Assembly: GCA_012517605.1 (NCBI GenBank)
Contig: JAAYUS010000150.1
Coordinates: 1 to 60,019 of the forward strand
DNA from: Bacteroidales bacterium
GTDB lineage: Bacteria; Bacteroidota; Bacteroidia; Bacteroidales; VadinHA17
DNA: 60,019 bases
Direction of reading: 5' to 3'
Positions 22,284-29,588 of the stretch are shown here, one piece after another. Position numbers and translations under genes: made by a program. The notes beneath the pieces were generated by a model. It had not been told where the DNA came from and did no database searches. It worked only from the letters and a program-made list of their open reading frames with translations. Each line of letters opens with the position of its first letter. Position 1 is the first letter of the stretch.

Positions 22284-23537
22284 TCACTTTCCTGCAAGAG
22301 GCAGAATCAGGAGAACAATTGAGAGTATTACCAATGCTCCTACTGCTCCCCAGCCTATAATATTCTGGTACAGTTTGTTCGTATAATCGCCCATTATTTT
22401 CTTATTATTAATAAGGAATATCATGCTGACAAGAACAACAGGAAGCAATATGCCGTTCAGTACCTGCGACCAGATTGATATATCTATCAGAGGGGCATTG
22501 GGTATCAGAATTATGATCGCCGAAAGGACGACGATGCCGGTGTAAAGCACATAGAATTCTCTTGCTTCGTCCCAGCTCTTATCTATCCCCGCTTCAAAAC
22601 CAAAAGCTTCACAGACATAAAATGCAGTGGCAAGAGGAAGTATGGTGGCAGAAAAGATTGAAGCCACAAAAAGACCGAAAGCGAAAACATGGGATGCCAG
22701 CCTGCCTGCAAGAGGCTCCAGCGACAGTGCTGCGTCCTTGGCTTCAGAAATCTCTATACCGTTAGGATAAAGTGTAGAGCCGCAGGCCACCATGATAAAA
22801 AATGCAACCACAACAGTAACAATACACCCTATTATTATATCGAGAACAGTGAATTTGTAGCTTTTCATTTCCAGTCCTTTTTCAATAACAGACGACTGCA
22901 TGTAGAACTGCATCCATGGTGCTATTGTAGTACCGACGAGTGCTATAATGACTGTGAGGCTTTGAGTATTTAGTTCAATACCGGGGCGGATGATTGCCGT
23001 TCCGATCTCTCCCCAGTCAGGTTTGGCCATTAAAGCCGATATGACATATGTTAGAAGGGAAGCGCTGAAAATAAGAAAAATCCGTTCTGCTATCTGGTAG
23101 GTTCCCTTAACTACAAGGAACCAGACAATGAAAGCGGCGAGAGGTACTGAAATATATTTGCTTACACCGAAGATTTCCATGCTTCCTGCAACTCCCGCAA
23201 ATTCAGTTGTTGTATTCCCTATATTTGAAAGAAGAAGGCCGATAAAAATAAAGAAGGTAACTTTTACCCCGGCATTTTCCCTTATCAGATCAGAAAGTCC
23301 TTTTCCTGTTACTATTCCCATCCTTGCATTCATCTCCTGGATGACAAGAAGAACAAGCAATGATGGTATCAGGGTCCAGATCATCCCGTAGCCGTACATG
23401 GCTCCGGCAACGGAATAAGTCGTAATTCCTCCTGCATCATTGTCAACACTTCCGGTTATTATTCCGGGTCCCAGGAGAGCAAAAAATATTGCTAAGTTCT
23501 TATAAAATCTTGTTTTTGAAAACCTGGTCATTGGCAA
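22284..23537 (-). CDS. Nramp-related divalent metal transporter, probable Mg2+-type (NRMT-like)
   Basis: 417 residues, 11 predicted helices, SLC11/Nramp fold. Helix 1 aligns without gaps to MntH between GPG and GYG, but the metal-binding DPGN motif is DAGG (within SVDNDAGGITT): Asp kept, Asn changed to Gly. Helix 6, normally with MPH, reads TTIAPWMQF: the metal-binding Met is Ala and His is Trp. These are the kinds of changes reported for Nramp-related magnesium transporters, where loss of the soft Met ligand permits hydrated Mg2+. The upstream gene 11 bases away encodes a MgtE-like Mg2+ sensor without a channel, which supports magnesium as substrate. Transport of Mn2+/Fe2+ is less likely. 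Confidence 0.85.
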   Translation of the reverse strand: MPMTRFSKTRFYKNLAIFFALLGPGIITGSVDNDAGGITTYSVAGAMYGYGMIWTLIPSLLVLLVIQEMNARMGIVTGKGLSDLIRENAGVKVTFFIFIGLLLSNIGNTTTEFAGVAGSMEIFGVSKYISVPLAAFIVWFLVVKGTYQIAERIFLIFSASLLTYVISALMAKPDWGEIGTAIIRPGIELNTQSLTVIIALVGTTIAPWMQFYMQSSVIEKGLEMKSYKFTVLDIIIGCIVTVVVAFFIMVACGSTLYPNGIEISEAKDAALSLEPLAGRLASHVFAFGLFVASIFSATILPLATAFYVCEAFGFEAGIDKSWDEAREFYVLYTGIVVLSAIIILIPNAPLIDISIWSQVLNGILLPVVLVSMIFLINNKKIMGDYTNKLYQNIIGWGAVGALVILSIVLLILPLAGK

Positions 23538-23548
23538 CTATTCTGAAA

Positions 23549-24823
23549 TTATCGCTTATTAGTTCTTCTTTTGTTTATAAGGTCTTCGATAACATCGTCA
23601 ACCACAACCATTCCCTGCAGGAGTTTTTCCTGGTCGACAACGGGTACCGCCAGAAGGTTATATTTTGAAATGGTTTCTGCAATATCATCGATCCTCTGAT
23701 CATCGTAAAGGTATACGGGATCAGATCTCATTATGGTTTTTACAGTCGTTTCCGGTTCTGCAACAACAAGATCGCGTAGGTCGAATGTACCGACCAGTTT
23801 ATCATTCTCCTCGGTAACAAACAGGGTATACAGTTCTGCAGGTTCGGGCTTTTTGTTTCTCAGTTCCTTAATAATGTAATCCACAGTAACTTCAGGTCTG
23901 AAGGATATCACATCAGTTGTCATCAGTCCGCCGGCAGAATTGTCGGGATATTCAAGAAGTTCCCTTACCTCCTGCGATGACTCGCTGTCCATTTCCTTAA
24001 GCAGCATTTCAGCTTTTTCATCTTCTATTTCATCGAGTATGTCGGCCACCTCATCAGCAGGCATTTTTTCAAGCACATCAGCTACTTTGTTTACAGGCAG
24101 GCTTTCGATTATATGGATCTGTCTCTGGGTTTCCATTTCCTCAAGTACGTCGGCAGCCTTTTCTTCATCAAGAGCAGAGAAAACCGAGGTGCTTGTTTTT
24201 TTCCCAAGGTCCTCGAGGATGTCGGCGATATCGGAAGGGTGGAGAGTATGAAGCTTTGAGTAACTTTTCGACAGTTTGATATTGCGATTTGAAAAATCTA
24301 TTGCCTCCATATCGTCCCACAAAATGAATTTTGAAGGAATTTTTACTCCTGCAAGATCGAGGATCCTTTTTATCGGAGCAAGAATGCCGATCCTCCTGAG
24401 AAGGCCCTCAATGCCAATATCAACAGCCACGGCAAATGTACCTGTAGGGAGGGTAGCAAGTCTTACATCATTCACCCTGACAAGTTTTCTGCCGTTCAGG
24501 TCAACAATCTGCTTGTCGAGCATATTTTCCACAAGCAATAAACCGTTTGCAACATCATCAGGATTCATTTCAATAAGTTCAGTGCAGTTTACATTCAGCA
24601 TTTCGCGGGCTTTTACAACCCTGAAGGTTGAAAATGAATAGAATCCGGTAAGCTTTCCGATCTTCAGCTTTACCCCTGTTACAAGCTGCTGGCTTGGATC
24701 ATTGAGTCCCGAAGGAGCATTGTTTATGAGCAGATCCTTTATGAATCCAATTGCATCACCGTCGGCACCGAATACCTCCTTGCCGATTATTCCGCTTAAA
24801 TAAAATGTTGTGAGTGATGTCAT
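23549..24823 (-). CDS. PRC-barrel/MgtE N-domain/CBS protein without channel domain
   Basis: 424 residues from the ATG at 24823, chosen over an in-frame start 30 bases upstream because a perfect AAGGAGGTGA lies just in front of it. Order: two PRC-barrel-like segments (about 1-160; GKEVFGADGDAIGFI), the superhelical MgtE N domain with its repeated DxADxLE units (about 195-295; HPSDIADILEDL), the YPDNSAGGLMT linker typical of MgtE, and two CBS motifs (about 300-420). The transmembrane channel of MgtE is absent and the chain ends in KRRTNKR. In MgtE these domains sense cytosolic Mg2+ and gate the pore; here they probably regulate the adjacent Nramp-related transporter in trans. Confidence 0.88.
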   Translation of the reverse strand: MTSLTTFYLSGIIGKEVFGADGDAIGFIKDLLINNAPSGLNDPSQQLVTGVKLKIGKLTGFYSFSTFRVVKAREMLNVNCTELIEMNPDDVANGLLLVENMLDKQIVDLNGRKLVRVNDVRLATLPTGTFAVAVDIGIEGLLRRIGILAPIKRILDLAGVKIPSKFILWDDMEAIDFSNRNIKLSKSYSKLHTLHPSDIADILEDLGKKTSTSVFSALDEEKAADVLEEMETQRQIHIIESLPVNKVADVLEKMPADEVADILDEIEDEKAEMLLKEMDSESSQEVRELLEYPDNSAGGLMTTDVISFRPEVTVDYIIKELRNKKPEPAELYTLFVTEENDKLVGTFDLRDLVVAEPETTVKTIMRSDPVYLYDDQRIDDIAETISKYNLLAVPVVDQEKLLQGMVVVDDVIEDLINKRRTNKR

Positions 24824-24882
24824 AGTCACCTCCTTCCAGTTTCTGATATTCAAGGAAGCGACCGGATGAACAGGCTGCTTCC
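24824..24882 (-). promoter_or_regulatory. Leader with perfect RBS and mutually exclusive hairpins
   Basis: On the minus strand the RBS GGAAGGAGGTGA (24837-24826) stands five bases from ATG, far stronger than elsewhere in the window. A hairpin GGAAGC/GCTTCC pairs 24882-24877 with 24859-24854, extendable by two pairs. The same GCTTCC strand can instead pair its CTTCC with GGAAG of the RBS (24837-24833). The two pairings exclude one another, as in translation-controlling leaders. Confidence 0.45.
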
Positions 24883-24955
24883 CTTAAACCAGGTTATTAA
24901 TTAATAAACTCGCAGGGCCGTCGTCCATATCGAATGAAAAATTGATTTTGCGGCG

Positions 24956-24987
24956 TAAAAGTAAATTTCGCGGCAATAAAATCCAAA
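24956..24987 (-). promoter_or_regulatory. Candidate promoter of the MgtE-like/Nramp operon
   Basis: On the minus strand TTTG (24987-24984), 20-base spacer, then TACTTTTA (24963-24956), seven of eight with TAnnTTTG. This predicts a leader of roughly 125 bases before the ATG at 24823. Confidence 0.5.
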
Positions 24988-26818: not shown

Positions 26819-26891
26819 CGGCCCGTAGCTCAGCTGGCAGAGCACGTGACTCTTAATCATGGGGTCGAGGGTTCGATTCCCTCCGGGCCGA
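26819..26891 (+). tRNA. tRNA-Lys (anticodon CTT)
   Basis: 73 bases folding as a complete cloverleaf: acceptor CGGCCCG (26819-26825) with CGGGCCG (26884-26890), D stem GCTC/GAGC, anticodon stem CGTGA/TCATG around loop CTCTTAA with anticodon CTT at 26852-26854, T stem GAGGG/CCCTC around TTCGATT, discriminator A at 26891. CCA is not encoded. Confidence 0.97.
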
Positions 26892-27843: not shown

Positions 27844-28302
27844 ATGGTAAACAAAACCGCTATCAGGATCCTCACCGAAAAAGGACTCAGAATAACCCCA
27901 CAGCGCATAGCAGTCCTCGATATTATCCTTAACCTTAACAACCACCCAGCCGCCGAGGAAATCTCGGAATATATGAGAATCAGCTACCCCCACGTTCCTA
28001 TAGGAACTGTTTATAAAATACTAGATGCTTTTATCGAAAAGGGTATCGTCACAAGAGTTAAAACCGAAAACGACGTCATTCGTTATGACCCCGTACCTGA
28101 AAAACACCATCACCTGTATTGCACTGACTCTGAATTGATTGAAGACTATTTCGACAATGATCTCAATAAACTGCTCGAGGATTATTTCAAAAAGAAACAA
28201 ATACCTGACTTCCAGATCCAGGATGTCAGACTCCAGATAATCGGAAAATACATAAAAGAACCTTCAGAAGTAAAAACCGTGAAACCAACCAATGACTGCT
28301 GA
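27844..28302 (+). CDS. Fur-family peroxide-type regulator (PerR-like) lacking the structural zinc cysteines
   Basis: 152 residues. Winged-helix DNA-binding domain (RITPQRIAVLDIILNL, PIGTVYKILDAF) and Fur-type dimerisation domain. The five ligands of the B. subtilis PerR regulatory metal site align at a constant offset: His34 in NHPAAEEI, Asp82 in IRYDP, His88 and His90 in KHHHLYC, and Asp101. The two CxxC pairs of the structural zinc site are missing; only Cys93 and the terminal Cys152 remain. Downstream genes are all peroxide or iron protection proteins, so it most likely represses them until peroxide oxidises it. Confidence 0.85.
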   Translation: MVNKTAIRILTEKGLRITPQRIAVLDIILNLNNHPAAEEISEYMRISYPHVPIGTVYKILDAFIEKGIVTRVKTENDVIRYDPVPEKHHHLYCTDSELIEDYFDNDLNKLLEDYFKKKQIPDFQIQDVRLQIIGKYIKEPSEVKTVKPTNDC

Positions 28303-28348
28303 AAAGACATATTCACTTACATCATATTAACCTTAATAACTAAAAACT

Positions 28349-28849
28349 ATGGGACAAAAAGGAAGAGAAATCGTCAAAATGAACGTCGACGAACTTATTG
28401 ACCTTCTAAACAAAGCACTGGCCGACGAGTGGCTTGCATATTATCAATACTGGATTGGGGCAAAAGTCGTAAAAGGCCCTATGAAAGATGCGGTTATTGC
28501 CGAACTTACCCTCCATGCCACCGAAGAGCTAAGCCATGCCGAACTTATTGCAACCAGAATAATCCAACTCGGGGGAACTCCCGTTCTGTCGCCGGCAGAA
28601 TGGCTAAGAATCACCGGATGTGGATATGACGCCCCCACAGATCATTATGTTGAGGAAATCCTGAACCAGAATATTAAGGGTGAACAATGCGCTATCCGCG
28701 TTTATAATTCGCTTCTTGACCTGACACGCGAAGGAGATCCTGTATCCTATAATATGATCCTCACAATCCTTTCACAGGAAGTGGAACATGAAGAGGATCT
28801 TCAGGCCCTTAAGGAAGACATCGATCTGATGCTGATGAAAAGACAATAA
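28349..28849 (+). CDS. DPSL (thioferritin-type) ferritin-like protein
   Basis: 166 residues, four-helix ferritin-like protein. Di-iron ligands are visible as Glu27, Glu60, His63, Glu112 and a C-terminal ExxH (Glu144/His147 in SQEVEHEED). Cys91 in TGCGYDAP and Cys114 in GEQCAIRVY correspond to the cysteine pair that defines DPS-like 'thioferritins' of Bacteroides fragilis and Sulfolobus. Such proteins form 12-mers that oxidise ferrous iron with hydrogen peroxide, limiting Fenton chemistry. Located 46 bases after the PerR-like gene. Confidence 0.9.
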   Translation: MGQKGREIVKMNVDELIDLLNKALADEWLAYYQYWIGAKVVKGPMKDAVIAELTLHATEELSHAELIATRIIQLGGTPVLSPAEWLRITGCGYDAPTDHYVEEILNQNIKGEQCAIRVYNSLLDLTREGDPVSYNMILTILSQEVEHEEDLQALKEDIDLMLMKRQ

Positions 28850-28883
28850 AACACTCATTTCAAACAATCTAATAAACACTATC

Positions 28884-29588
28884 ATGGAAGAAAAAACTTA
28901 CTCAATGCCGCGTATCGGCGACAAAGCACCTGAATTCAAAGCTGTAACAACACAGGGAAACATAAACTTCCCTGCTGATTATTCCGGATCATGGGTTATC
29001 CTGTTCAGCCATCCCGCCGATTTTACACCGGTGTGCACATCGGAATTCATAACATTCGCAAGCCTGGAAAAGAAATTCAACGAAGCCAACTGCAAACTGG
29101 TAGGACTTTCCGTTGACGGCCTCTACAGCCATATCGCATGGCTGAGGACAATCAAGGAGAAAATTGAATATAAAGGCATGAAAAATGTCGAGGTCAACTT
29201 CCCTCTTATAGAGGATATCACAATGGAAGTAGCCAAAACATACGGTATGCTCCAACCAGGTGAAAGCTCCACAAAAGCTGTAAGAGCAGTGTTCTTCATC
29301 GATCCGAAAGGGATCATCCGTACGATTATTTACTATCCTCTCAGCCTCGGCCGTAATTTCGACGAACTTTACAGGGTGCTGATTGGCCTCCAGACCGCTG
29401 ATGCATTTTCAGTGGCCCTCCCTGCCGACTGGCGCCCGGGTGACGACGTTATAGTCCCGACTGCAGGCTCATGCGGTGTGGCAAAGGAAAGAATGGAAAA
29501 CAAGACCGAAATGAAATGTTACGACTGGTTCTTCTGCACTAAAAAACTGGATAAGGAGGATGTATTTAAAACAGTACTGAAGAAATAA
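28884..29588 (+). CDS. Peroxiredoxin, Prx6/archaeal type with C-terminal Cys pair
   Basis: 234 residues, AhpC/TSA superfamily, cytosolic. Peroxidatic Cys51 lies in HPADFTPVCTSEF. The long C-terminal domain (YYPLSLGRNFDELYRVL) marks the Prx6 group. Cys212 and Cys218 in KCYDWFFCTKK keep the C-x5-C spacing of archaeal thioredoxin peroxidase, where they act as resolving and exchange cysteines; Cys199 is a further candidate. It reduces hydrogen or organic peroxides. Positioned 34 bases after the ferritin-like gene. Confidence 0.92.
   Translation: MEEKTYSMPRIGDKAPEFKAVTTQGNINFPADYSGSWVILFSHPADFTPVCTSEFITFASLEKKFNEANCKLVGLSVDGLYSHIAWLRTIKEKIEYKGMKNVEVNFPLIEDITMEVAKTYGMLQPGESSTKAVRAVFFIDPKGIIRTIIYYPLSLGRNFDELYRVLIGLQTADAFSVALPADWRPGDDVIVPTAGSCGVAKERMENKTEMKCYDWFFCTKKLDKEDVFKTVLKK

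Follow-up and report, generated by a model that had tools for sequence, protein, structure and literature searches.

Locus and gene assignments

The window, meaning the whole stretch of 60,019 nucleotides analysed here, comprises positions 1 to 60,019 of contig JAAYUS010000150.1 from a Bacteroidales bacterium (assembly GCA_012517605.1). On its minus strand, a gene for a channel-less MgtE-like protein (the sensor) is followed by a gene for an Nramp-type transporter, and a short leader lies upstream of both, the cluster spanning 22284-24928 (Table 1). Comparative sequence evidence indicates that this leader is very probably a conserved RNA switch built around a small open reading frame (ORF). 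The leader is the new part of the system; the pairing of the two genes and the idea of feedback between them have been known since 2014.

The sensor gene was taken to start at the ATG at 24823 and to end at 23549, with the ATG of the transporter at 23531. An alternative sensor ORF with a TTG start is ten codons longer (434 residues); the start at 24823 was preferred for its conserved Shine-Dalgarno site and because a length of 424 residues prevails among the listed relatives. The two genes are separated by 11 bases as ORFs were listed, and by 17 bases with the ATG start. The original prediction for the interval 22284-24987 described a MgtE N-domain/CBS protein without its channel beside an Nramp protein, and both genes were found there with Pfam support. 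It was silent on the leader, which falls inside the same interval (24928-24821).

Table 1. Position and supporting evidence of each feature of the sensor-transporter cluster.
Feature	Position	Strand	Evidence
Leader ORF MDDGPASLLINNLV, 14 codons + stop	24884..24928	-	M[DE][DE]xP conservation; third-position variation
Hairpin A 5' arm, over leader-ORF end and stop codon	24877..24892	-	Helix A covariation; model R1
Hairpin A 3' arm, overlapping the anti-Shine-Dalgarno segment	24843..24859	-	Helix A covariation
Anti-Shine-Dalgarno segment GGTCGCTTCCTT, partner in hairpin B	24852..24863	-	Helix B counts; flank-swap test
Shine-Dalgarno site of the sensor gene AAGGAGGTGACT	24824..24835	-	9-base match to AAGGAGGTGA
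Channel-less MgtE-like protein (PRC barrel(s), MgtE_N, CBS pair), 424 residues	23549..24823	-	Pfam; PDB matches; AlphaFold and Foldseek
First PRC-barrel region, residues 1-80	24584..24823	-	Pfam PRC; beta strands in model
Second beta-rich segment, residues 94-175, possibly a second PRC barrel	24299..24544	-	Predicted strands only
MgtE_N domain	23939..24244	-	Pfam
NRMT-clade Nramp transporter, 415 residues, DAGG / TIAPW metal site	22284..23531	-	PF01566; EleNRMT match; tree

Leader ORF

Related loci were collected by a scan of genome contigs, and the best 80 of at least 569 confirmed relatives were used. Seven of the 80 were left out of the leader survey (no sensor, or fewer than 150 bases upstream), and 45 Bacteroidota loci together with the window gave a set of 46. 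Sequence is conserved across the upstream regions of the Bacteroidota loci. An ATG-initiated ORF beginning M[DE][DE]xP, a motif chosen after the sequences had been viewed, was present in 38 of the 46 against 0.03 expected, and 200 sets of Markov-simulated upstream regions contained at most 1 per set. The residues kept are two acids and a proline at positions 2, 3 and 5. Since the 38 rows were selected by motif, bases one and two of codons 2, 3 and 5 were fixed; third bases were free and variable (GGC, GGG, GGA or GGT at Gly4; CCT, CCG or CCC at Pro5), and this variation with kept residues points to a coding sequence.

A covariance model (R1) built on the 38 rows, window included, matched the window at 24821-24928 with 82.7 bits, a score obtained on one of its own training rows. 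Among the eight motif-negative Bacteroidota loci the model recovered the leader in four (L026, L035, L037 and, weakly, L032), and it also found the leader in L043 and L046, which were outside the motif survey. A second match in genome G172 (32 bits) had no long ORF behind it and was taken as chance, as was a match in L082 (E 0.53). Within the window's own genome ATGGAYGANNNNCCNGCN was matched once, at the window leader, and no M[DE][DE]xP ORF was found in the 400 bases upstream of that genome's full MgtE or CorA. A small ORF, MDIHPTTVTLMNI, was seen at -366 of the full MgtE (G000:C121). Rfam and the listings from searches of open-access literature, subscription papers aside, contained no report of such a leader in Bacteroidota or before genes of Nramp-related magnesium transporters (NRMTs).

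Alternative hairpins and the Shine-Dalgarno site

The 38 leader rows were aligned (alignment A5) and two helices were evaluated. Helix A joins the end of the leader ORF to the anti-Shine-Dalgarno region and was paired in 84.9% of cells, with a covariation of 0.42 against at most 0.20 for slid helices and 50 double-change cells against 20.5 in shuffles. Helix B joins the anti-Shine-Dalgarno segment to the Shine-Dalgarno site and was paired in 79.9% of cells; its covariation was 0.27, with slid helices reaching 0.15 at most. When loci exchanged the bases that follow GGAG, pairing dropped from 20.0 to 17.9 (0 of 1000 swaps as high), and 0 of 2000 swaps were as high when the 23 distinct flanks were used. 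Because both helices use part of the anti-Shine-Dalgarno segment (alignment columns 97, 98 and 101), A and B are mutually exclusive. Folding energy of the leader body gave a mean z of -2.85, with values below -2 in 29 of 38 leaders. Placing a ribosome at the leader stop codon lowered Shine-Dalgarno accessibility in 15 of the 38 and raised it in 1.

The Shine-Dalgarno site of the sensor gene matches AAGGAGGTGA over 9 bases; among the 32 remaining window ORFs of at least 250 residues, some of which are perhaps not genes, the longest match is 5 bases. A duplex energy of -16.4 kcal/mol was calculated with an assumed 16S tail and was not counted as evidence; no 16S gene was found in the window's own genome (G000). 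A search for Sigma-70 promoters yielded 2 sites against 1.9 in shuffles, and this candidate was dropped.

Association with the importer operon and occurrence in other phyla

Of 60 relatives, 33 have the leader; these 33 are also the ones with the sensor, and 32 of them have the transporter. Genome G202 (L133) has leader and sensor, with no transporter at E ≤1e-60. The sensor was present at all 25 fetched leader loci, the window among them. Nine further leader regions were inspected, and the ORF at the leader end was the sensor in eight; the ninth was the weak second match in G172. Some of these genomes repeat records of the 80-locus set (L136 is the leader of L022, and L139 that of L014). L043 has no sensor, and there the leader runs directly up to the ATG of the transporter; together with the associations, this arrangement suggests that the leader follows the importer operon and not the sensor gene alone.

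Searches for the M-box covered 41 of the 80 loci, including L059 with its upstream part cut off. Of 9 Bacillota loci in the window's clade, 7 have an M-box, a mark of part of the NRMT family, ahead of the gene pair. None was found in 13 Bacteroidota loci, in 14 further loci of other phyla, or in L057, L060, L064, L067 and L074. Upstream of the window sensor, neither an M-box nor any other Rfam family reached its gathering score; two weak matches had E values of 2.1 and 3.3.

A looser motif, MD.(.)P, also chosen after looking, was found within 200 bases in 6 of 28 non-Bacteroidota loci where 0.2 were expected (none of 300 sets exceeded 2). Four of the six, out of eight Bacillota loci with enough upstream sequence (L045, L048, L050 and L078), have an MD.DP ORF between M-box and sensor. 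In these four leaders pairing of the ORF end with the anti-Shine-Dalgarno segment was equalled in 0-1 of 300 shuffles, and pairing of that segment with the sensor Shine-Dalgarno site in 1, 2, 2 and, for L045, 27 of 300. The Kapabacteria locus L076 (MDPDS) behaved alike, with 0 and 13 of 300 shuffles as good. For L079, which has an MDAGP ORF, no signal for helix A was seen, 190 of 300 shuffles doing equally well; at L062 (MDPYP ORF) the pairing test was degenerate. The four Bacillota loci possibly carry two Mg2+ controls in series on one mRNA. In the same loci, folding placed a hairpin with a T-run after the M-box, ahead of the leader-ORF-based switch; consensus scans of L048 and L078 found no terminator on the plus strand.

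Transporter

The transporter matched Pfam PF01566 at 319 bits. Its best PDB match was EleNRMT (7qia, 382 bits), the other PDB Nramps scoring 86 bits or less. Alignment with EleNRMT gave 44% identity, with DNDAGG in transmembrane helix 1 (TM1) and GTTIAPW in TM6. The predicted changes from DPGN to DAGG and from the helix-6 Met to Ala are both real when the protein is aligned with MntH and EleNRMT: DAGG replaces DPGN of MntH, and TIAPW replaces VVMPH. The protein carries the NRMT signature of DxxG in TM1 and TxxA/T in TM6 (PMC8806188), and the MntH histidines of TM6b are replaced by Trp208 and Met213 (417-residue numbering). Across the 80 related loci the TM1 motif was DAGG in 78 and DVGG in 2, and the TM6 motif was GTT[IV]APW in 79, L076 having GTTICPW.

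A tree of 62 rows was calculated by a quick search without bootstrap, and long-branch warnings were issued; three of its rows (L017, L043 and L080) are labelled sensor-first though no sensor was observed beside them. The window transporter clades with the M-box-controlled Bacillota proteins, apart from MntH and from Nramps with DDPSG/ISPY or VVPYN motifs. The MntH group was split off with a support of 99, and the fork joining the NRMTs had 85. Placement inside the MntH clade would have spoken against the original prediction; the phylogeny put the protein outside that clade and grouped it with the NRMTs. The window's own genome (94.6% complete) contains a separate, classical MntH (DPGN/MPHN), a full MgtE with channel, and CorA. 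From its sequence, the window transporter is likely to be a Mg2+ importer; Mg2+ transport uncoupled from protons is a mark of the NRMT family.

Sensor protein

Pfam assigned MgtE_N (96.6 bits) and CBS (64.3 bits) to the sensor, with an overlapping FliG_M match of 25.9 bits. The PRC barrel reached 24.1 bits against a cut-off of 21.2, with no single stretch passing alone. Added PRC-barrel domains had been predicted in the plural: one is supported by Pfam, and the second corresponds only to a beta-rich segment (residues 94-175) of the predicted structure. Pfam found no MgtE channel domain, and the protein ends after the CBS pair, without plug helix or pore; the plug-helix residues E258/D259 are absent because the protein ends before them. 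The best relatives in the PDB were MgtE cytosolic domains. An AlphaFold model from 67 sequences (predicted local distance difference test score 81, predicted template modelling score 0.48) matched MgtE structures 2zy9 and 2yvy in Foldseek; with these scores the domain folds are usable and the domain arrangement is not.

Residues were surveyed in 74 sensors longer than 330 residues, taken from the 77 paired loci described below, with TtMgtE numbering and sites from PMC5882242. Asp was found at D91 in 67, at D95 in 73, at D247 in 73 and at the E59 position in 64. Five of the six Mg2+-site positions were acidic in 82-99% of the sensors, the sixth (D226) in 8%; the background over 43 other acidic columns had a mean of 51%. 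A Mg2+-sensing role is credible because these five positions stay acidic. Arg187 of the ATP site was kept in 67 of 74, and TtMgtE needs F227 for ATP binding (PMC5529423), a position considered further below. The pattern of residues suggests that the sensor senses Mg2+ with its ATP control altered or lost. Regarding a single origin of the PRC-type sensors, the deep forks of the tree had a support of 48.

Sensor-transporter pairing

The sensor lies directly upstream of the transporter, on the same strand and 6-175 bases away, in 77 of the best 80 loci, some of the sensors being truncated or split. Of the other three, L017 has no upstream sequence, L080 has 430 bases only, and L043 is a real miss. 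In 148 Bacteroidota genomes, 16 Nramp loci scored at least 224 bits (15 genomes), all with a PRC-type sensor beside them; these are the loci of the 16 listed sensor matches starting at query residue 102 or before. Adjacency in these genomes was read by comparing coordinates by eye, with sensor matches listed to about E 3e-19. The genome-neighbourhood search thus bore out the recurrent pairing on which the original prediction depended, and recurrence in 77 of 80 loci argues against chance.

Gene order in the 16 Bacteroidota loci was sensor-first in 3 and transporter-first in 13. Eleven of the 13 transporter-first loci were inspected: all have DNDAGG, ten have TIAPW and one (G047) has TITPW. The sensor match of G047 contains a stop codon. 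Seven weaker Nramps had other motifs and no sensor in the fetched stretch. Most fetched loci of the reversed-order clade (L086, L087, L089, L093-L098) have a conserved element of their own, approximately ATGCCGGGTTTCGTCAACGTCCAAC, just before the transporter start, and it differs from the window leader.

One fusion candidate, P0246 (605 residues), joins MgtE_N-CBS and NRMT in frame and starts inside the N domain. Fusions of this type would support physical contact if found again; as a single sequence P0246 was judged too little for that, and in a second candidate, P0337, the downstream part looks frameshift-damaged.

A gene resembling the N-terminal cytoplasmic domain of MgtE was reported near most members of the NrmT group by Shin et al. 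(2014; PMC4072509), who proposed feedback control or chaperone activity for this partner. The idea of the original prediction that the sensor controls the transporter had thus been published before as a proposal. That the NRMT-sensor pairing persists when the gene order is reversed strengthens this proposal.

Neighbouring genes

A tRNA gene lies at 26819-26891. At 27844-29588 the ORF translations, read by eye, show in a row what we take to be a Fur-family-like regulator, a ferritin-like protein and a peroxiredoxin-like protein.

Proposed mechanism and alternative explanations

At low Mg2+, ribosomes would abort at M-D-D-x-P and the end of the leader would stay free; hairpin A would then form and the start site of the sensor gene would open. 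At high Mg2+, ribosomes would reach the leader stop codon and cover the 5' arm of A, and hairpin B would mask the start site. The direction of the leader fits a Mg2+ switch because abortion would free the arm of A (open) and completion would cover it (closed). As a second layer, the Mg2+-loaded MgtE-like protein may contact the transporter and lower its activity when cytosolic Mg2+ is high. By analogy with known leaders, Mg2+ is the probable signal, acting through ribosome drop-off, and feedback on transport by the sensor protein is judged probable to the same degree. The combined reading, in which the leader switches Mg2+ uptake on at low Mg2+ and the MgtE-like protein restrains the transporter, is marginally favoured, the leader part weighing most.

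Several observations weigh against this reading. The numbers of pairs changed on both sides were close to those of shuffles for helix A (8 against 7.2, 185 of 500 as high) and for helix B (5 against 3.3, 43 of 500 as high); helix B also had 17 further pair types against 15.3 (111 of 500 as high), leaving two of its five measures not clearly above shuffles. The consensus energy from RNAalifold was weak (-1.53 kcal/mol), and duplex energies of A and B each beat shuffles (at most 5 of 100 as good) in 24 of 38 leaders and did not in 14. In equilibrium folding the unpaired value of the Shine-Dalgarno site was 0.20 for the free leader and 0.09 once a ribosome occupied the stop codon, a modest switch, so that the model needs ordered folding. 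Ribosomes of Bacteroidia are reported to hide their anti-Shine-Dalgarno and to ignore Shine-Dalgarno sites unless bS21 is missing (PMC9976891).

The distribution of the leader adds to these points. The window's genus supplies 36 of the 60 relatives, so that co-occurrence of leader and sensor shrinks to 4 of 25 when counted by genus (leader 4, sensor 4, transporter 3). Neither motif nor model found a leader in Bacteroidota loci L028, L030, L041 and L044; none was found in 11 loci examined from the reversed-order clade, and the strict M[DE][DE]xP motif occurred in 0 of 28 non-Bacteroidota loci. For the protein layer, the D226 position is Asn in 53 of 74 sensors and the Phe227 position is Leu in 60 of 74. 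The transporter of Acidobacterium capsulatum rescued a Mn2+ defect fully and a Mg2+ defect only at low millimolar Mg2+, and co-expression of its MgtE-like gene gave no better rescue, in the one species studied (PMC4072509).

Four other explanations were weighed. The strongest, though unlikely, is that the leader is a translational attenuator reading the charging of Pro or Asp tRNA, or the supply of elongation factor P or of ABC-F proteins, with low Mg2+ acting only indirectly. A short ORF with two alternative hairpins is the architecture of attenuators generally, and pausing at acidic residues early in a peptide is relieved by EttA, an ABC-F protein (PMC11282234). Against this, the two acids and the proline that are kept belong to the same class as EPDP of MgtL, the leader serves genes predicted for Mg2+ import, and similar leaders at four Bacillota loci stand behind a Mg2+ riboswitch.

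It is distinctly improbable that the transporter imports chiefly Mn2+, or divalent ions broadly, with the MgtE-like protein sensing Mn2+ as suggested for A. capsulatum. The rescue pattern of the A. capsulatum protein Acp2977 given above (PMC4072509) speaks for it, and P0264 (source name: Acidobacteriia bacterium) branches beside the window clade. The M-box Mg2+ riboswitches that 7 of 9 Bacillota loci have in front of this gene pair argue the other way, as do the classical MntH of the window's own genome and the loss of the soft Met ligand from the window transporter. Just as improbable is a role of the MgtE-like protein as a metallochaperone or assembly partner in place of a feedback gate. Chaperone activity was the alternative named by Shin et al. 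(PMC4072509), and the missing plug-helix residues E258/D259 would suit it; the N-CBS Mg2+-site acids, kept above background at five of six sites, count against it.

Least probable is that bS21-less ribosomes drive sensor translation through the extended Shine-Dalgarno site, as for rpsU in Flavobacterium, with hairpins for tuning and Mg2+ secondary: such ribosomes favour strong sites in a class whose ribosomes hide the anti-Shine-Dalgarno (PMC9976891), and the sensor has the sole strong site among the 33 window ORFs of at least 250 residues, but this explains neither the kept acidic leader ORF nor the similar Bacillota leader.

The Mg2+-responsive leader, if it operates as proposed, would offer a testable explanation for the control of NRMT genes that lack an M-box, and stands as a rare candidate for regulation through a Shine-Dalgarno site in a phylum reported to hide the anti-Shine-Dalgarno. 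To our knowledge, only enterobacteria have so far yielded leader peptides in which ribosome stability serves to read Mg2+. A leader of this kind conserved in Bacteroidota, with similar ones in some Bacillota loci and one Kapabacteria locus, would suggest that ribosomal gauging of Mg2+ is widespread and reaches a different importer family, the NRMTs. A wider proposal, which we hold to be rather doubtful, is that leaders using the ribosome as Mg2+ sensor govern NRMT importers across phyla, placed behind a Mg2+ riboswitch and ahead of a protein Mg2+ sensor in Bacillota and gating a rare strong Shine-Dalgarno site in Bacteroidota. If it were true, one importer would be under three Mg2+ controls in Bacillota, and import in Bacteroidota would depend on Mg2+ as well as on ribosomes whose anti-Shine-Dalgarno is exposed.

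Comparison with known systems

The system of Shin et al. (2014; PMC4072509) shares with the window the transporter family, the upstream partner gene and the idea of feedback. It differs in that the window has no M-box and part of the Bacteroidota have the reverse gene order; a leader ORF with hairpins is not described in the text of that paper as available to us, and the term 'PRC' is absent from its main text. EleNRMT (7qia; PMC8806188) has 44% identity to the window transporter, which is known from sequence, and shares its DxxG-TxxA metal site and the loss of the TM6b histidines. The N-CBS region of TtMgtE (2yvy, 2zy9; PMC5882242, PMC5529423) has the same fold and most of the same Mg2+-site acids as the sensor; the window protein differs in lacking the pore and plug-helix acids and in its added PRC region, and window-type sensors have mostly Asn for D226 and mostly Leu for the ATP-site Phe227.

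In M. tuberculosis an M-box is followed by a conserved uORF2 (PMC12810186), a small ORF between M-box and Mg2+-related genes as in the four Bacillota loci. The uORF2 peptide differs in being described as specific to mycobacteria and of unclear role, and no acidic leader switch is proposed in the accessible part of that paper.

The leader also resembles the enterobacterial leaders mgtL and mgtQ. Under Mg2+ limitation, ribosomes drop off at the EPDP of mgtL and transcription of mgtA proceeds (PMC11282234); in mgtQ, the acidic second and fifth codons promote release of the mgtB start site (PMC8092293). Both share with the window a short acidic leader ORF containing proline, alternative hairpins and a Mg2+ importer gene, a predicted one in the window, and mgtQ in addition the freeing of a masked start site. 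They differ in phylum and in importer family, the first gene served in the window is the sensor, and the transcription termination of mgtL was not seen at the window leader. The likeness lies in these shared features; the peptides are very short and come from different phyla.

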